Virus record (IMG/VR): IMGVR_UViG_3300035698_001093 | Coordinates: 1-29,688 of that record | Source of the DNA: a virus | DNA: 29,688 nucleotides | Strand: one strand, 5' to 3' | Part shown: in pieces, positions 6,626-27,713 of the stretch | Position numbering within the stretch: position 1 is the first letter of the stretch | How the letters are laid out: every line of letters starts with the position of its first letter | Notes under the pieces: generated by a model | Databases searched by the model: none | What the model was told of the DNA's origin: nothing | Seen by the model: the letters and a program-made list of their open reading frames with translations, nothing else | Made by a program: the position numbers and the translations under genes

Positions 6626-7432
6626 ATGGATATTAGGGATTTTAAAGAGGGAGTACAGTACCCAGGGGCTACGGCATTTGCTGAGATCTTTGCCTTACAG
6701 AAGGTACTATTAAACCAGTACATCGGAATAGAAAGTCTACCAGAGTACCCACTGGATATCAACACCAGAGCGGCTCAGACTTTAGTAAAGGATTTTTCTG
6801 GGAGAATTATTGAAGAGCTTGGAGAAGGCTTCGAATCCTATCTTATTATGATGGATATGTTTCATCATGGTAAAGAAGAAGAAGAGATGGTACCACACCT
6901 CCAAAATTTTAACGAGGAGATATCAGATGCCATCCACTTCTGGCTAGAGCTAATGATATATTCTGGGTACGAAGTTAATTCCCTGAGTTTCTGGTTGGAT
7001 CTTATGCCCGAATCACAATATCTTAAGGGCCCTGATATGCTAGAACTCTACATGAAACTCGGAGAGCAATTAGTACACCAGGATGTGGCTAACAAAAAGA
7101 TTCCTTGCCGATGGGTAATCAAGGACCACATGCTCGATGATGAATTCCTAAGGGGTGGTAGGCAACTAGGTATGAACAGACAAGATATTATGAAACAATA
7201 TCTATGGGATATCACCTATTATCTTCAGATCGCAAGGAATACCCTTAAGAATAAACCTTGGAAGCAGACCGAGATGATGACAGACTTCAACCAATATGAA
7301 GAACAAATGATGAAGGCAACAGTTGCCCTCTTTAAATTCTTTGCCTTTACTGGGTTTACTAAGGAATCCATCTTCGTAATTTATTTCAAGAAAAACAAGG
7401 TTAACCAGTTCCGCATAAGTAGTAAGTACTGA
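6626..7432 (+). CDS. All-alpha NTP pyrophosphatase, dCTPase/dUTPase type
   Basis: 268 aa, helical. The metal-binding ExxE...ExxD layout of the dimeric dUTPase / T4 gp56 / MazG superfamily is visible: RIIEELGE (60-67) supplies the first acidic pair, and NEEISDAIHFW (96-106) supplies E97/E98 and D101. The C-terminal FKKNKVNQFR (near 253-262) matches the family's late K..VN..R nucleotide-binding motif. Enzymes of this family hydrolyse dUTP and/or dCTP to the monophosphate plus PPi. In T4 the homologue gp56 supplies dCMP for hydroxymethylation and clears dCTP. The synthase at 8554 makes that role attractive, but dUTP versus dCTP preference cannot be read from sequence. Confidence 0.75.
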   Translation: MDIRDFKEGVQYPGATAFAEIFALQKVLLNQYIGIESLPEYPLDINTRAAQTLVKDFSGRIIEELGEGFESYLIMMDMFHHGKEEEEMVPHLQNFNEEISDAIHFWLELMIYSGYEVNSLSFWLDLMPESQYLKGPDMLELYMKLGEQLVHQDVANKKIPCRWVIKDHMLDDEFLRGGRQLGMNRQDIMKQYLWDITYYLQIARNTLKNKPWKQTEMMTDFNQYEEQMMKATVALFKFFAFTGFTKESIFVIYFKKNKVNQFRISSKY

Positions 7433-7450
7433 TATCAAGAGACAAAGCTT

Positions 7451-8206
7451 ATGATAAGAAGTAAACATGCCACCAGCCAAGAAGCTTGGGAATGGGTCAA
7501 TGAGTTCCTTGCTACTAAGGAGGAAGTAGTAAAGAGAAAGGGTGGTACAAGGAGTGGGTCACAGGTAATATCCTATGACCACTTCATGGAATTCAATAAA
7601 CTCTGGGTTGATCCTGAGTTTGACTTCGGTGATATCTTTGGGTACAAGAAACAGAAGTGGTCCATCCTTAAATCCAATTATGTAGATATGAATATAGTGG
7701 ATTTGGTTAAGAGCGATATTTTAACTAGGGAGGCTAAGAAAACACCCAACTACAATCACACCTTCAAATTCTCTAATCACCATGGTTCAGGACATGGGTG
7801 CTTAATTTCTTTAACCTTCCAGAGAAGGCACTCGCATGATAACCCAGTGTTACTTATTAACATCAGATCATCAGAGGTAACCAAGAGGTTACTCATGGAC
7901 TTCGTATTAGTACAAAGGATTACCGAGTACATATATGGTGATGATGTTAGTGCCTCAGCAAAATTATTCTGCGGCAATATGTATATCTCTGCTGAGAATT
8001 TTGTTATGTACCATGGGCACAAGGACCTCCATACATTTATTGACCCTGAACATAGTGTTATGGAGACTAGGATTATGGATATCTACGAAAAGTTTAGTAA
8101 ACCAGAGGCTCTCGAAACTATTAAATACAAGGTACATCTCAGGTCAGCAAAGAGGTTGCAGAAGTTACCTAACCCACCGCTTAAGGCCAAAGACTTATTA
8201 CTTTGA
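7451..8206 (+). CDS. Divergent thymidylate-synthase-fold protein
   Basis: 251 aa. The second half can be laid on the ThyA/dCMP-hydroxymethylase core: a candidate catalytic Cys at C117 (HGCLISLTFQ), then RSSEV at 139-143 in place of the QRSxD phosphate loop, then D150 exactly eight residues after E142. That is the position occupied by Asn in dUMP enzymes and Asp in dCMP enzymes. G175-N-M-Y178 falls where GxxH occurs. A His-rich tract HGSGHG precedes the Cys. The N-terminal 100 residues are unlike ThyA. It is a distant paralogue of the 8554 protein; activity, or a role as a partner subunit, is inferred only. The assignment rests on motif spacing. Confidence 0.5.
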   Translation: MIRSKHATSQEAWEWVNEFLATKEEVVKRKGGTRSGSQVISYDHFMEFNKLWVDPEFDFGDIFGYKKQKWSILKSNYVDMNIVDLVKSDILTREAKKTPNYNHTFKFSNHHGSGHGCLISLTFQRRHSHDNPVLLINIRSSEVTKRLLMDFVLVQRITEYIYGDDVSASAKLFCGNMYISAENFVMYHGHKDLHTFIDPEHSVMETRIMDIYEKFSKPEALETIKYKVHLRSAKRLQKLPNPPLKAKDLLL

Positions 8207-8214
8207 ACCCGGAG

Positions 8215-8240
8215 TACTATTAATAATAAATATATAAATA
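8215..8240 (+). promoter_or_regulatory. Candidate phage promoter before groES-like gene
   Basis: TACTAT at 8215-8220 is followed by an AT-only tract ending in TATAAATA (8233-8240), just before the ATG at 8243. The same TACTAT plus ATA-rich arrangement precedes 6213, 11457, 18161, 22706 and 24655. No TATATTTG or TTG pair is present. It is suggestive rather than proven. Confidence 0.3.
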
Positions 8241-8242
8241 CT

Positions 8243-8554
8243 ATGAAGAAACACAAAGGATTGCCAGCAGAACAACGGGTAGTGGTTTTGCCAATGGACC
8301 AAAAGGATTCTAAATCGGCCGGGGGTATAATCTTACCCGCAGGAATGGAAGAGGATGTACCCGGATTGGGGACCGTAGTTTTAAGCGGTACGGGTAGTAA
8401 GGATAACCCAATGATGTACAACACGGGCGATATAATAGTATACAGTCAGTATGCGGGTTTGGATGTTAAACTTAATCTTGATGAATATGGAGAGCATACC
8501 TACAAGGTAATGAACCAGCTCGACATCATGATGAAGCTAATACCCGTAGGATAA
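8243..8554 (+). CDS. groES: GroES-like co-chaperonin
   Basis: 103 aa, the usual length for GroES and T4 gp31. Family landmarks in order: an N-terminal PAEQRVVVLP strand (residues 8-17), GGIILP (27-32) preceding the mobile-loop region, GLGTVVLSGTG (41-51), NTGDIIVYSQYAG (59-71) and a C-terminal strand containing LDIMMKLIP. It should cap the host GroEL, with which phage co-chaperonins fold large capsid or other proteins. No GroEL-like gene is in the window. Its place between two synthase-fold genes is unusual; it overlaps the next start by 1 nt. Confidence 0.85.
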   Translation: MKKHKGLPAEQRVVVLPMDQKDSKSAGGIILPAGMEEDVPGLGTVVLSGTGSKDNPMMYNTGDIIVYSQYAGLDVKLNLDEYGEHTYKVMNQLDIMMKLIPVG

Positions 8555-9270
8555 TGAGAGTCTATGCGAATGCCTACGAGCTTATGTCAGAGATCTTCAG
8601 GGAAGTTTTTGAGATGGGACACATCGTTCACCCTAAATCAATGCAGAACAAGGATGTATCTGATGATGATAATTACCTCACAAAGGAAATCACGAACTAC
8701 TCTTACTGCTTAACCAGCCTTAACAAACTGAGCTATCTATTCTTTGCTGATGCCAGGTCAAAGTACTGGGCAGAGGAGGAATTTATGGAGAGAATCAGCC
8801 CACTATATGTTAATCCGGGTACTGCTTGGAAGATCAGAGGAGAACTTTGGAGGGAATTTCTTAACAATGGTGAATTTGATTATGATTACAACACCAGGAT
8901 GAAAGATTCACTTGCCTCTGCCATTAAGGAACTACGTGGGAACCCAGACTCACGTCAGGCTATTATAAATGTCTGGGATGCTCAGATAGACCCCAACAAT
9001 CTGGGTGGGGTAGCACGTGTACCGTGCTCCATGTATTATCAGGTTCTGGTAAGGGACAACAAGGTTAATATCATATATAACCAAAGGTCAGCGGATGTAG
9101 TAACCCACTTCGGTAATGATGTATTCCTAGCATTTAAACTTATGGAATATGTTTCACGGGAGATCAACATGAAACCCGGTTACCTATTCCACAACATCGG
9201 TTCACTACATGCCTACAAAAAGGATTGGCCAAAACTGAAAACTTGTATTGATGATATCCAGAAGATATAA
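8554..9270 (+). CDS. Thymidylate-synthase family, probable dCMP hydroxymethylase
   Basis: 238 aa. Catalytic Cys C158 (RVPCSMYYQVLVR), phosphate-binding QRSAD (177-181) and H219/Y221 (GSLHAY) fix the family. Eight residues after D181 stands D189 (FGND). At this position ThyA has Asn (E. coli N177), while T4 dCMP hydroxymethylase gp42 has Asp (D179). From memory, gp42 also reads RSND...FRND and GSLHVY, close to this protein. I therefore infer dCMP as substrate, with hydroxymethylation or methylation at C5, instead of dUMP. It lacks the long ThyA N-terminus and is shorter than gp42 (about 246 aa). It overlaps groES by 1 nt and the polymerase gene by 20 nt. Confidence 0.72.
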   Translation: MRVYANAYELMSEIFREVFEMGHIVHPKSMQNKDVSDDDNYLTKEITNYSYCLTSLNKLSYLFFADARSKYWAEEEFMERISPLYVNPGTAWKIRGELWREFLNNGEFDYDYNTRMKDSLASAIKELRGNPDSRQAIINVWDAQIDPNNLGGVARVPCSMYYQVLVRDNKVNIIYNQRSADVVTHFGNDVFLAFKLMEYVSREINMKPGYLFHNIGSLHAYKKDWPKLKTCIDDIQKI

Positions 9271-11428
9271 ATACAAACTCGTAGAGAACTGGGAGGAGCT
9301 ACACCAGTTGGTTGCTTATTGCAAACAGACTGGCTATGCTTCTTCCGACTACGAAACTTGGGGTACCAATGCTATGTACCCCGGTAGTTACCCGACATTG
9401 CTCGGTGTATCATTTCAACCGGGTAGTGCATGGATTATACCACTTGCTCATAAGGATTCCTGTTTCCTTAATAATAATGAATGGGTGGAGGTTCTAAAAT
9501 ATTTTGGGCGAGAGGTCATCCAGAATGATGCGATCGTAAAGATAGGACAGAACATTCAATATGAAATTAATTGGTGGCGTAAATACGGCATCGTAATGGC
9601 AGGCAGGGTCTTTGATACTATGCTTGCCAAGTATTTGTTGGATGAAGAAAGACCCCATGGCCTAAAAGAAATGGTAGATAGGTTTATCCCAGACTATGCA
9701 GGGTATAATTTAGTTGGAGCACCGGGGCCTAAAGCCCCCCAAGAAAGGATCATTGAGTTCTGGTCTAATGTACCCTTAGATGAGTTGGCTGAGTACTGTG
9801 CATTAGACTCTGACCTGACTTTTAGGCTATGGGTATTCTTTGAGAGAAGATTAATAGACAACGGGTTCTACCCATTCTTTAGGAACATGATGATGATGGC
9901 ATCCAGAGTCCTTTCAGCTGCGAGCTATAGGGGTTTGGACACGGACCGAGCATACCTTAGGAATTTAAAGGCCACCTATGCTGAGAAGATAAAAACCTGC
10001 GAAGTTAAATTAAGGAACCTACCTATCATCCTAGAATATGAGGCTGGTAAAATTATTGCCACTAAGAAAAAGATGGTTGCTGATTTAAAAGAAGAGATTG
10101 AACAAATAGATTTAGAGGGTGGTAGTGAAAGGTTGGTCAAGAGTAGAGAGGCTAAGATATCAAGATACTTAGCTGGGGACTTTACAACAAAGAAAGAACT
10201 AGAACTCATTGCCCCCACTAACTTCAATAGTACTAAGCAAATGATAGACCTACTCTTCGATAGTACTGATGGGTTTATGTTTGATATAATTAGATATACA
10301 GAGGATAAGAAGACCAAACAGATATCTGATAGGCCATCAACCGATGAGTCAGTACTCCTAGAATTACAGGAACTTGATGAAACAGAATTTATTAAAATAC
10401 TCCTAGAACTAAGGGGGCTAACCAAGATGAACTCCACCTATGTGGTTGGTATGTGGGAAAAACTAAACTCTAATGATAAAATACATGGAGGTTTTTTGTT
10501 ACATGGGACCGTTACGGGAAGGCTTTCGAGCCGCAACCCCAACCTTCAGAACATACCAAGGGATACCACCTCTAGTGATATCAAAAAGATGTTCATTGCT
10601 CCACCCGGAAAATTAATGATGCAGCTCGATTACTCTCAGGCCGAGCTAAGAGTATTGGCAGCAGAAGCAAAGGAGCACACCATGATCTCCTGGTTTAAAA
10701 CCGGCAAGGACGTCCACCTTGCCTCTGCTTGCCTTAAGTATGATGAGGACTACGATATGATTAAAAAGATCTATGATGATAAAGGGAACAGTGAGTTCGA
10801 GAAGTGGAAGATACGAAGAAAGCAGGCAAAAACTATTAATTTCGGTATTGTTTACGGACAAACCTCAAAGAAGTTATCAATTACACTTTCTACTGAGGAT
10901 CACAAGGTCTCAATTGTTGAAGCACAGGAATTTCTTGATAACTTTAATGAGCAATTCCCAGCTATTGCCAAACATATTAAGCGACAACAGAGGTATGTTA
11001 CCAAGCACGGGTATGTTAAGAACCTGTTTGGTAGAAAACGAAGATTGCCTAACGTCGACTCGGACAATTGGGGAAAGAAAGCTGAAGCCCTCAGACAGGC
11101 AGTTAATGCCCCAATACAAGGAGCTGCATCAGACTTCACATTATTCAGTTCTATACTCATTCGGGAACATATCATTGGTGGTACTTTACCTAGATCACTT
11201 GAGCAAGTCGGAACTGTTCATGACTCCCTCATATTTTATATGGATCCAGCAGATATACATGATACAATTCCTAAGCTATATGATATATGCAGAAGCCCAG
11301 AAACTAAGCTATGGTTTAACTTCGAAGTAAAGGATGTTGAAATGAAGGTGGATTTTGAAATGGGAAAAAGCTGGGGAGGGCTAAAGGACTACGATCCACA
11401 AGTAAATTATACAGAATGGGTCACTTAA
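9251..11428 (+). CDS. polA: Family A DNA polymerase with 3'-5' exonuclease
   Basis: 725 aa from the ATG at 9251; the frame also has a TTG one codon earlier. The DEDDy exonuclease domain has D33/E35 (SSDYETWG), GQNIQYEIN (about 97-105) and YCALDSDLTFRLW. The polymerase domain has GRLSSRNPNLQNIPR, motif A with D460 (LDYSQAELR), motif B (RKQAKTINFGIVYG) and motif C with D658 (VHDS; Ser replaces the usual Glu of HDE, as in some phage and organelle enzymes). There is no 5' nuclease domain; that activity is encoded separately at 13829. This is the replicative polymerase candidate. A charged helical insert (about residues 245-310) separates the exonuclease and polymerase parts. Confidence 0.93.
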   Translation: MISRRYKYKLVENWEELHQLVAYCKQTGYASSDYETWGTNAMYPGSYPTLLGVSFQPGSAWIIPLAHKDSCFLNNNEWVEVLKYFGREVIQNDAIVKIGQNIQYEINWWRKYGIVMAGRVFDTMLAKYLLDEERPHGLKEMVDRFIPDYAGYNLVGAPGPKAPQERIIEFWSNVPLDELAEYCALDSDLTFRLWVFFERRLIDNGFYPFFRNMMMMASRVLSAASYRGLDTDRAYLRNLKATYAEKIKTCEVKLRNLPIILEYEAGKIIATKKKMVADLKEEIEQIDLEGGSERLVKSREAKISRYLAGDFTTKKELELIAPTNFNSTKQMIDLLFDSTDGFMFDIIRYTEDKKTKQISDRPSTDESVLLELQELDETEFIKILLELRGLTKMNSTYVVGMWEKLNSNDKIHGGFLLHGTVTGRLSSRNPNLQNIPRDTTSSDIKKMFIAPPGKLMMQLDYSQAELRVLAAEAKEHTMISWFKTGKDVHLASACLKYDEDYDMIKKIYDDKGNSEFEKWKIRRKQAKTINFGIVYGQTSKKLSITLSTEDHKVSIVEAQEFLDNFNEQFPAIAKHIKRQQRYVTKHGYVKNLFGRKRRLPNVDSDNWGKKAEALRQAVNAPIQGAASDFTLFSSILIREHIIGGTLPRSLEQVGTVHDSLIFYMDPADIHDTIPKLYDICRSPETKLWFNFEVKDVEMKVDFEMGKSWGGLKDYDPQVNYTEWVT

Positions 11429-13839: not shown

Positions 13840-14731
13840 GAAATTAGTAATATTCGACGGTAACCACTTAGCCTATCGGGCTCTGTACAAGTTTTCAAAT
13901 TTGAAAACCCTTGATGGAGTTAAGACTGGGGTTATATATGGCATGCCCTACGTAGCTGAGAGTTTAATACGCAGGTTAGACCCGAACAAGGTAGTAGTTA
14001 CATTCGATGGAGGTAGGGACCAGTTTAGAATGGGTCTCTTACCTTCTTACAAACAAAGGGACCAGAAGTTAGGCTTTGACAAGGATGATTTCTACAGGCA
14101 GAAGGATATTGGTAGAGATACATTCATGGCTTTAGGGTTATCAATAGTATGGCAGAAATATATGGAGGCCGATGATCTCATAGCTATGGTGGCCAGGAGA
14201 TATGCCATTAAGGGCTGGGACGTAATTATTGTATCGGGTGATAAAGATTTCAACCAGCTGGCCCAAGCTCCTGATGATACCAATGGTGAGATTTCTATAT
14301 ATAATACCACTAAGGGTAAGATATATGGGTATTCTAATATGCACAAGGAAGTAGGCTACCATGCATATCAATGTGTAGATTATCTATCACTGATGGGAGA
14401 TAAGTCTGACCATATACCAGGATACCCGGGCATGGGTCCAAAAAGAACCTCTCAATTACTTGAAAAGTATGGGTCAGTTAAAGAGTTCCTTATATCGGGG
14501 GATAAGTTTGGGAAAATTGACAATGAAAAATTAGCCGAGCTTATGATACTGAATAAGAAAATGATAGACCTAAAATATTTCTACCGTAAATTTCTGATGC
14601 ATAAATCGATCCCCTACTTGGATCCCAATGCAAAATATGATGCTATTAAGCTTAAAGGACTATGCGGGCAATATGAGATGAACTCATTCTTGAAACCACA
14701 ATTTATAAAAACATTTAAAAACTTACGATGA
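13829..14731 (+). CDS. 5'-3' exonuclease / flap endonuclease (FEN/PIN type)
   Basis: 300 aa. Family acidic residues are visible in order: D10 (IFDGNHLAYRA), D60 (VTFDGG), the EADD cluster (near 111-114, MEADDLIAM), SGDKDF (near 130-135) and GDKSDHIPG (near 190-198), followed by a helix-hairpin-helix segment PGMGPKRTSQLL. It has the role of the Pol I N-terminal nuclease, T5 D15 or T4 RNase H: removal of RNA primers and 5' flaps. It complements the family A polymerase, which lacks this domain. Overlaps both neighbours by a few nt. Confidence 0.9.
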   Translation: MRNRKLVIFDGNHLAYRALYKFSNLKTLDGVKTGVIYGMPYVAESLIRRLDPNKVVVTFDGGRDQFRMGLLPSYKQRDQKLGFDKDDFYRQKDIGRDTFMALGLSIVWQKYMEADDLIAMVARRYAIKGWDVIIVSGDKDFNQLAQAPDDTNGEISIYNTTKGKIYGYSNMHKEVGYHAYQCVDYLSLMGDKSDHIPGYPGMGPKRTSQLLEKYGSVKEFLISGDKFGKIDNEKLAELMILNKKMIDLKYFYRKFLMHKSIPYLDPNAKYDAIKLKGLCGQYEMNSFLKPQFIKTFKNLR

Positions 14732-15363
14732 GCGACGGAATAACAGATGCCCATAGAGGCTATCACGTACCACCCAAGATTAAAGACATGAAGATAATGA
14801 TTTGCGGAGCCAGCGGTACTGGTAAAACTACCCTGGCTAATCATATCTCAGAGCTACATGATTTAACTTTATTCTCAGCGGGGGCTAAAATAACATGGCG
14901 TAAATACGGTTTTAAGAACCATGCTCAAGCCATCAAAGAATCACTACTAAATCCAGCATTGGGGTTCAACTACCAATGGGATATACTACGTAGTAGGATG
15001 AAGGAAGCAGCTTTACACCCTACATACATAACAGACAGAAGTTATATTGATAACCTCACATACATCATGCTTCAAAATGGATCCCAATTATGTGAGGATG
15101 ATATATTGAATTTCATCGAATTAATCAAGGAGGGCTTAGAATGGGTAGATTTACTTATATTCCTAAGGTTTAATGATGAGACAGTTTTAGAGGACGATCA
15201 CCGTAGGATCCAAAACAGATATTATCAGGGTATGGTAGATAATACCATGAGTTGGGTAATCCATTCTGTCTTTCCGAAATTAAAGGATAAGGTATTAGAA
15301 ATTGATGCTTGGGACTTCGAAACACGTGTTAAAAATATAAATGGATGGGTAAACAACTTATAG
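14728..15363 (+). CDS. P-loop nucleotide/nucleoside kinase
   Basis: 211 aa. The P-loop is GASGTGKT (27-34) after the strand MKIMIC. TDRSYIDNLTY (about 92-102) corresponds to the DRS/ERS motif of deoxynucleoside and nucleotide kinases. A lid-like stretch DDHRRIQNRYY (about 152-162) supplies arginines. The first 20 residues are an extension; an internal Met at 21 also fits as a start, but the ATGA overlap with the exonuclease stop supports 14728. A role in phosphorylating dNMPs, perhaps a modified dCMP as T4 gp1 does, is inferred from context. Nucleoside specificity cannot be read. Confidence 0.65.
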   Translation: MSDGITDAHRGYHVPPKIKDMKIMICGASGTGKTTLANHISELHDLTLFSAGAKITWRKYGFKNHAQAIKESLLNPALGFNYQWDILRSRMKEAALHPTYITDRSYIDNLTYIMLQNGSQLCEDDILNFIELIKEGLEWVDLLIFLRFNDETVLEDDHRRIQNRYYQGMVDNTMSWVIHSVFPKLKDKVLEIDAWDFETRVKNINGWVNNL

Positions 15364-22705: not shown

Positions 22706-23356
22706 ATGGAAGGGAAAACTATTGTTAAATCTCTTGAACTAGAGAATGGCTATCATTTACTCGGATTAGATGATGATACCGTAGCTCTTGTCAAGGTAGT
22801 ATCTTTATCAATTCAGAAGGAAGAACTCCTCGAGCTATTGGGTGAAGAAGATGAGCCAGAGGCTGAAGCCACAAAGAAGGAGAAGGAGAAAAAGAAATCT
22901 GCTCCAGTTGAGGAAGAAACCGATGAAGCAGAAGATGATTCTTATACTTGGGACGATCTCAAGGAAATGGACTTTGAAGAACTTAAAGACCTTGTCAAGG
23001 ATAATGACCTTGATACTGACCCTACAGATTTCGATGAGGACGACGAGGCTGAGGTAATAGCTTTCCGTAAGGAGATTGCCGAGGAGATTGAAATTGAGAT
23101 TCCTGAGGAAGATGAGGAAGATGAGGAAGATTCTGAACCCGAAGCAGAGCCAGAAGCAGAAGATGATTCTTATACTTGGGACGATCTCAAGGAAATGGAC
23201 TTTGAGGAATTAGAGGAACTTTGTGATGAACAAAACCTTGATACTGACCCTACAGATTTCGATGAGGACGAAAATGGAGACGAAGAAAAACTTCGTAGGC
23301 ACATTGCTAAGGAACTGGGAATTACTCCACCTAAGGCCAAGAAGAAAAAGAAATAA
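22706..23356 (+). CDS. Acidic protein with two 76-aa repeats (HeH/SAP-like)
   Basis: 216 aa, strongly acidic. The unit starting SYTWDDLKEMDFEEL occurs twice (about residues 77-91 and 153-167), with LDTDPTDFDED following each copy. The DNA of these segments is repeated perfectly at an offset of 228 nt. Each unit looks like a helix-extended-helix (HeH/SAP-like) module. A lysine-rich linker (KKEKEKKKSAPVEEETDE) separates a short N-terminal beta domain (KSLELENGYHLLGL...). The tail is basic (KAKKKKK). The KSAPVxEET stretch also occurs in the 24655 protein. Function is unknown; it may be a DNA-mimic-like or scaffold protein. Confidence 0.7.
   Translation: MEGKTIVKSLELENGYHLLGLDDDTVALVKVVSLSIQKEELLELLGEEDEPEAEATKKEKEKKKSAPVEEETDEAEDDSYTWDDLKEMDFEELKDLVKDNDLDTDPTDFDEDDEAEVIAFRKEIAEEIEIEIPEEDEEDEEDSEPEAEPEAEDDSYTWDDLKEMDFEELEELCDEQNLDTDPTDFDEDENGDEEKLRRHIAKELGITPPKAKKKKK
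22925..23271 (+). repeat. Intragenic direct repeat, 228-nt period
   Basis: Segments 22925-22977 and 23153-23205 match almost perfectly, as do 23008-23043 and 23236-23271. All are offset by 228 nt, which is 76 codons. The near identity at third positions shows a recent in-frame duplication. The connecting sequences between the matched blocks have diverged more. Confidence 0.8.
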
Positions 23357-26903: not shown

Positions 26904-27713
26904 ATGAACGATGACATCTATTTTCCAGTCGAAAAAGTTCCCGTATCTGAAATTCAGAACGGTACTTTTGACCACCCTTCGGGTATTAGCCATGCCATAG
27001 TGGTAACTAAACCCGACGGGGTAAAACGGGTAGTACAATACTGCTCCGAACTTTATCACCTTGTTCCGAATGATCAGATTATGCCACAGTTCGAAGCAGA
27101 GATCTCTAAGCATTACAACATCGAGAAATCTATCAGGATGAATCGATGGTCACAGTTCTTTGTAGATTTTGTGATCAAAGAAAAGGGTATCACAGTGGGT
27201 ACTAAGGAGGATCTCATATTCCCGAAGATCACTCTGATCAATTCATACGACGGGTCCATCAAGTACAACTTCATGGCGGGGTTCTTCAGGCTTCTCTGCT
27301 CGAATGGTATGATGATCAAGGAGGGGGACGTAAAACAGATTAAAGCCATGCACACCCCGAGTATAGGTAAGGAAACATCCTTCAGTGCTATCATGGAGAT
27401 GGCATCCGAGTTCCTCTCAGTGGTGGAGGATATGACTGAGCCCTATCAAGAGCTACAAGAGCAACCAGTAAAAGACTGGATGATGAGAATAGAAGAAGTA
27501 GTGGAGGAGACTGGATTCCCCCTTACTCTCAAGGAGGACGTAATACATAGGATGGGGATAGAGCTAGATTCTTTAAAGGGCTTAGTACCAACCGATTGGA
27601 TAGTGTACAACGCTTTCAACTATCAGCTTAACCACAATACTGGGATCAAGGCCAAGGCTCACAAGAAGGATGCTATGGACCAACAGGTACTGGAATATTT
27701 ACTCAAGTACTAA
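26904..27713 (+). CDS. DUF932-family protein
   Basis: 269 aa. The family landmarks are visible: an N-terminal Tyr-Hyd-Val segment (SELYHLVPNDQI, 48-59), then INSYDGSIKY (about 112-121) and FRLLCSNGMMI (about 127-137), and a late TDWIVYNAFN (about 231-240). DUF932 proteins are common in phages and plasmids near ssDNA and recombination genes, and are of unknown function. The 1-nt overlap with the next gene makes a coupled pair. Confidence 0.75.
   Translation: MNDDIYFPVEKVPVSEIQNGTFDHPSGISHAIVVTKPDGVKRVVQYCSELYHLVPNDQIMPQFEAEISKHYNIEKSIRMNRWSQFFVDFVIKEKGITVGTKEDLIFPKITLINSYDGSIKYNFMAGFFRLLCSNGMMIKEGDVKQIKAMHTPSIGKETSFSAIMEMASEFLSVVEDMTEPYQELQEQPVKDWMMRIEEVVEETGFPLTLKEDVIHRMGIELDSLKGLVPTDWIVYNAFNYQLNHNTGIKAKAHKKDAMDQQVLEYLLKY

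Follow-up and report, generated by a model that had tools for sequence, protein, structure and literature searches.

The stretch of DNA investigated here (the complete 29,688-base IMG/VR virus record IMGVR_UViG_3300035698_001093, hereafter the window) contains at positions 6626-9270, directly upstream of a DNA polymerase I (Pol I)-type gene and with a small overlap with that gene, a group of genes encoding two proteins with thymidylate synthase (TS) fold: a synthase with the residues expected for action on deoxycytidine monophosphate (dCMP), and a strongly diverged, unannotated protein termed here the partner. With moderate confidence, the region is interpreted as a nucleotide-remodelling cassette in which the two TS-fold proteins would make a C5-modified dCMP that is fed into the phage DNA. 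The genes concerned are:

6626..7432, + strand: all-alpha nucleotide pyrophosphatase of the dCTPase/dUTPase type (PF08761 dUTPase_2, 1.8e-9)
7451..8206, + strand: partner, an unannotated, strongly diverged TS-fold protein of 251 amino acids (fold model, conserved residues, profile comparison); codons of invariant residues: Tyr77 7679-7681, Gly116 7796-7798, Cys117 7799-7801, Arg139 7865-7867, Asp150 7898-7900
8243..8554, + strand: Cpn10/GroES-like gene between partner and synthase
8554..9270, + strand: TS-superfamily synthase, putatively dCMP-type, of 238 amino acids (Pfam, fold model, alignment); codons: Arg155 9016-9018, Cys158 9025-9027, Asp189 9118-9120
9248..11428, + strand: DNA polymerase I family polymerase, start codon uncertain (library match; adjoins the cassette in 69/72 loci)
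14728..15363, + strand: P-loop nucleotide kinase (AAA_28, 7e-9; PHROG thymidylate kinase, 1.5e-9)

The synthase is a member of the TS superfamily (Pfam PF00303, 5e-20; PHROG160, 1.7e-32) and combines the TS fold with the residues C158, R178, S179, D189 and H219. An initial annotation of this DNA had located C158, the QRSAD motif (Q177-R178-S179-A180-D181), D189 and the GSLHAY motif (G216-S-L-H-A-Y221) in the open reading frame (ORF) 8554-9270, and all of them are found at these positions; its placement of D189 at the site of ThyA N177 and T4 gp42 D179 was borne out by the alignment and by the identical Arg-to-Asp spacing of 11 in synthase, gp42 and ThyA, and the GSLHVY motif that it had given for gp42 is indeed present there. 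C158, R178, D189 and H219 are invariant across 54 aligned relatives that share 22-80% identity with the window protein. At position 177 of the reference alignment, Asn is found in three ThyA proteins (E. coli, phages Triscuit and Dynamite), and Asp in gp42, AfhB and its relatives, the DLP4 synthase (included as Xp12-like reference in place of Xp12), Enterococcus phage 9183 and Bacteroides phage BF503P4. Since the residue pattern of the synthase is invariant in 54 relatives while the three ThyA controls possess Asn, it is not attributable to chance. The ThyA signature (Asn177, His147, Leu143) is replaced by Asp189, Ser159 and Arg155, position 147 being occupied by Ser/Thr rather than His throughout the family; of the TS arginine pair R126/R127, the first is kept (R134) and the second is Gln. 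In the MetaGPA study, the TS residue differences ranking highest in modified-cytosine contigs are Asp177 and an altered position 147 (PMC8670742), and MilA, likewise with Asp at position 177, prefers cytosine nucleotides (PMC5175136). Because D189 is invariant in all 54 aligned relatives, a dCMP-type rather than a deoxyuridine monophosphate (dUMP)-type substrate is well supported for the synthase by its residue pattern.

The second TS-fold gene was absent from the scheme of the initial annotation, which had passed over ORF 7451-8206 inside its own interval. The partner yields no Pfam or NCBIfam match and no credible PDB match by sequence; its identity emerged only when the whole family was aligned, the fold predicted and profiles compared with one another. 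Relatives are present in IMG/VR (68-83% identity) and in human-gut phage contigs (32-37%), and by gene position and subsequent profile search a family of 53 diverse sequences (12-84% identity) was assembled. The full alignment of this family is devoid of a conserved stretch; Tyr77, Gly116, Cys117, Arg139 and Asp150 are nevertheless invariant in 53/53 sequences. C117, R139 and D150 stand at the places of the catalytic Cys, the phosphate-binding Arg and the pyrimidine-reading residue, with an Arg139-Asp150 spacing of 11 that equals R166-N177 in ThyA and R178-D189 in the synthase; neither the R126/R127 pair nor His207 is represented by a conserved residue in the 53 sequences. The AlphaFold2 model (predicted local distance difference test score, pLDDT, 93.7; predicted template modelling score, pTM, 0.90) was compared with the PDB by Foldseek: all 14 matches at E<0.001 are TS-family enzymes, led by the T4 dCMP hydroxymethylase and AfhB, the latter with the highest template modelling (TM) score in the partner's match list (0.54/0.61). 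In the viral fold library, matches at E<0.001 consist of partner relatives and TS proteins, except for one model labelled as deaminase domain and a few nameless ones; the distant PMBT14 partner was picked up by fold alone. Comparison of the partner and synthase profiles by hhalign resulted in an E value of 3.5e-4, versus 0.37 for the reversed control. Model and conserved residues identify the partner as another TS-fold protein, highly diverged, in which a putative remnant of a dCMP-type active site persists. In three human-gut contigs (MT836181, MT121960, MT121964; loci L013, L014, L015), two partner paralogues accompany one synthase, giving three TS-fold proteins per cluster, and locus L039 carries a second, very diverged partner copy (7575-8318) downstream of its synthase.

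The two genes are tightly linked. In a set of 72 non-redundant loci with partner, mostly fetched by partner query, the synthase is present in 71, i.e. in 71/71 with enough sequence (the remaining locus is a contig fragment that breaks off within the region), and in each of these 71 the partner lies directly upstream of a D189-type synthase; both genes overlap or abut in 27/71 and are separated by no more than 350 bases in 66/71. In the reverse direction, 18/18 published-phage regions opened for their synthase carry the partner. Three queries detected the partner in 3, 18 and 85 published-phage records, where it is mostly annotated as "hypothetical protein" (in two records as "pyrimidine hmase synthase"); the hosts include Gordonia, Mycobacterium, Streptomyces, Serratia, Pseudomonas and Brevundimonas. 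Synthase counts were slightly higher; of the Gordonia records, for instance, 75 contained a synthase and 68 a partner, a surplus that may reflect further types of TS like the one in GodonK. The two genes thus occur jointly in phages of very different kinds, and the neighbours of the cassette in the 72 loci are Pol I (69), the kinase (66), dCMP deaminase (60), dUTPase_2 (54), a Cas4-like nuclease (36), ThyX (4) and DHFR (0).

This neighbourhood bears on an ordinary supply of deoxythymidine monophosphate (dTMP), as assumed by the annotators of Gordonia phage Azira, whose cluster was published as "thymine synthesis" with omission of the partner (PMC10353413); the partner would then be an inactive or regulatory relic. 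The cluster does hold dCMP deaminase, dUTPase and a thymidylate-kinase-like gene; however, the invariant Asp189 disfavours dUMP, the active-site residues of the partner are strictly conserved, ThyX occurs in four loci, and Microbacterium phage Triscuit encodes a normal Asn177 ThyA directly after its cassette synthase, which is therefore unneeded for dTMP in that phage. Such a role is most improbable.

The remaining alternatives concern the product, and most of them can be reconciled with dCMP as the substrate. The AlphaFold model of the synthase (pLDDT 93.8) has its closest fold in the CMP 5-hydroxymethylase MilA (TM 0.80), which is also the best profile match with wide alignment, and further resembles the dCMP hydroxylase AfhB (TM 0.71/0.77). 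Maximum-likelihood analysis unites the 17 members of the synthase family that were sampled in one clade (support 100/99), separate from the gp42, ThyA and AfhB types. A folate-dependent dCMP 5-hydroxymethylase like gp42, resulting in a genome with 5-hydroxymethylcytosine, would agree with Asp189, GSLHAY, the lack of the TS C-terminal tail in the 238-residue protein, the occurrence of gp42 among its PDB matches and the top fold match to MilA. The hydroxymethylation signature of gp42, though, consists of Asp/Glu at position -3 of the catalytic Cys, Ser/Thr94 and Tyr96 (PMC6400193). Asp at the 177/179 position (D189) and the Tyr96 equivalent (Tyr112) are kept in 54/54 synthases, but the water-activating Asp145 of gp42 is replaced by Arg155 in 54/54 and Ser94 by Tyr110 or His in 54/54, whereas the gp42-type controls BF503P4 and Enterococcus 9183 retain Asp at -3. 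Together with the distinct clade, this makes hydroxymethylation of the gp42 kind unlikely. An early reading of Trp at position 94 of the synthase was dropped after profile alignment and MAFFT alignment with the references, which assigned Tyr112 to it. Bacteroides phage BF503P4 encodes two different Asp177 synthases, both with Asp at -3, and no window-type partner in the stretch read. The T4-type cytosine route of the initial annotation hence survives in part: structure prediction and alignment with gp42 and ThyA uphold the TS fold, the Asp177 type and a predicted dCMP substrate with pyrophosphatase and kinase nearby, but Arg at -3, Tyr/His at 94 and the separate clade speak against the gp42 assignment. 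"T4-type" should be dropped as family designation, while a gp42-like action on dCMP may be retained.

Alternatively, the synthase and/or the partner might produce 5-hydroxy-dCMP in a flavin-type reaction comparable to those of AfhB from phage HY126 and of the Mosigvirus 5-hydroxy-dCMP (5-hodCMP) synthase; the 5-hodCMP synthase is described in PMC13390438, and PDB entries 9iqu and 9iqc are, by their titles, AfhB-type structures. Both window proteins have AfhB near the top of their fold matches, and the synthase also near the top of its profile matches. The synthase, however, keeps Asp181 (ThyA D169) where AfhB types have Asn and possesses Arg where they have Glu; AfhB enzymes belong to another clade, and no partner gene was detected in the 3.5 kb that surround the HY126 AfhB gene. 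Flavin-type hydroxylation is accordingly regarded as a rather improbable explanation. The synthesis of 5-methyl-dCMP, as in 5-methylcytosine phages of the Xp12 type, appears highly unlikely. In its favour, an Asn-to-Asp exchange in a ThyA suffices for dCMP methylation (as cited in PMC8670742), and DLP4, which is related to Xp12, itself a 5-methylcytosine phage (PMC9206674), has an Asp177 synthase in similar surroundings (pyrophosphatase, TS, dCMP deaminase); but DLP4 shows no partner gene and an own DHFR near its synthase, that synthase groups with ThyA (99/97) outside the window family, and no cassette locus of the 72 contains DHFR.

The preferred interpretation, i.e. a dCMP-modifying system of two proteins, would proceed in four steps. 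First, the 6626-7432 protein would hydrolyse dCTP/dUTP to the monophosphate; the initial annotation was right in recognizing a gene of this type here, and the family membership, shared with the T4 gp56 dCTPase/dUTPase (PF08761, 2e-5), is the basis on which dCTP activity is proposed. Second, synthase and partner, as paralogous TS-fold proteins, would jointly alter C5 of the base, either as a complex or in consecutive steps, whereby both active-site cysteines would add to C6 and Asp189 and Asp150 would read N3/N4 of cytosine. Third, the 14728-15363 kinase followed by the nucleoside diphosphate (NDP) kinase of the host would generate the triphosphate; the P-loop kinase named by the initial annotation is confirmed, its nucleotide specificity not being assignable from sequence. 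Fourth, the Pol I-type polymerase (9248) would incorporate the modified nucleotide. The resulting course (dCTP to dCMP, C5 change, rephosphorylation, incorporation) would mirror known base-replacement pathways of phages, and the altered cytosine probably shields the phage DNA by escape from host nucleases. Two proteins acting together is the most economical assumption, because two TS-fold proteins are co-inherited. TS protomers swap arginines (R126'/R127'), and in gp42 it is Arg123/Arg124 of one protomer that bind the phosphate of the substrate in the other (PMC6400193). As the synthase keeps Arg134 and the partner has lost the arginine motif, a mixed complex could complete the phosphate site of the partner by an arginine lent from the synthase. 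The added group is not expected to arise via the water-addition route of gp42; since the invariant Arg155 occupies the place of its water-activating Asp, a different nucleophile or cofactor geometry is likely. A farther-reaching version, in which a heteromeric TS-superfamily enzyme with an arginine lent between paralogues attaches a C5 group that is neither hydroxymethyl, hydroxyl nor methyl, so that phages of Actinomycetota, Pseudomonadota and gut bacteria would share a widespread but overlooked cytosine modification, is put forward tentatively and is more doubtful than the two-protein system as such.

Several points weigh against the two-protein system. Asp177 predicts the substrate and not the product: it cannot fix the chemistry, because it is common to hydroxymethylation (gp42), 5-hydroxylation (AfhB) and probably methylation (DLP4). 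For the catalytic Glu58 of TS, three alignments gave three different placements and no confident equivalent. Both fold models are monomers, and active-site geometry is not among their outputs. The partner could have a structural or regulatory function instead. The distance correlation of 0.83 between partner and synthase would equally be expected from linkage alone, and the count of synthases without partner comes from a smaller sample (18 phage regions, 5 distinct contigs), since most cassettes came via the partner query. A dCMP deaminase, usual in other cassettes, was undetected in the window lineage (the window and loci L001-L012). In the literature, no biochemical, mass-spectrometric or nucleoside analysis was found for any cassette phage, and the published accounts of Azira, Polewnik and the Desulfofustis phage contain no base-modification data on this cassette.

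Besides the cassette, the + strand of the window encodes a replication set composed of a DnaB-type helicase, primase, a further helicase, Pol I, a gp32-like single-stranded DNA-binding protein, RecA, a 5'-3' exonuclease and an SbcCD-like pair. Only in the window lineage is the partner separated from the synthase by the Cpn10/GroES-like gene, which the gut contigs carry at another place and which probably has no share in the modification chemistry. A scan of GTDB genomes with the synthase gave a single distant match (Lederbergia lenta, 25%); the host is therefore not inferable from a prophage, and the Bacteroidota phage of the initial annotation is a candidate assignment only. The protein encoded at 22706-23356 is acidic, contains an internal repeat (DDSYTWDDLKEMDFEEL...TDPTDFDED) and has a tail rich in lysine; 26904-27713 encodes a DUF932 protein (2e-15).

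Cytosine modifications of phages decide which restriction, CRISPR (clustered regularly interspaced short palindromic repeats) and modification-dependent defences work. The predicted cassette is common to approximately 100 published phage records, whose annotations usually show thymidylate synthesis together with a hypothetical protein, and for many of these phages a laboratory host exists (Gordonia terrae, Mycobacterium smegmatis). If true, a TS enzyme of two subunits would add a new form to an enzyme family that has been studied very thoroughly.

Among the known systems, the TS of modified contigs in MetaGPA, as described in the available part of that report (PMC8670742), resemble the window synthase in Asp177, the changed position 147 and a dCMP deaminase and NTP pyrophosphatase nearby; they differ in that a second TS-fold partner is not described in that part, and the scanned window ORFs showed no carbamoyltransferase. 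AfhB and the 5-hydroxy-dCMP synthases share with the window synthase the TS fold, Asp177 and Thr/Ser after the Cys, and AfhB matches both window proteins structurally; they deviate by Glu at -3, Asn at 169 and, for HY126, a gene with no partner seen beside it, flavin use by the window synthase being a candidate feature only. MilA (PDB 5b6d, 5jnh) is the best fold match and has Asp at position 177, but acts on a ribonucleotide (Ala176, Lys133) in an antibiotic pathway, in contrast to the deoxy-type Ser179 and Arg134 of the window synthase. T4 gp42 is similar in superfamily, Cys nucleophile, Asp177, the RS..D and GSLHxY motifs, the absent TS C-terminal tail and a dCTPase/dUTPase-type gene in the same genome; the window synthase differs by Arg at -3, Tyr/His at Ser94, Gln as second arginine of the RR pair, its own clade and a constant second TS-fold gene. 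The cassette is best regarded as a putative two-gene TS-superfamily system of cytosine modification.

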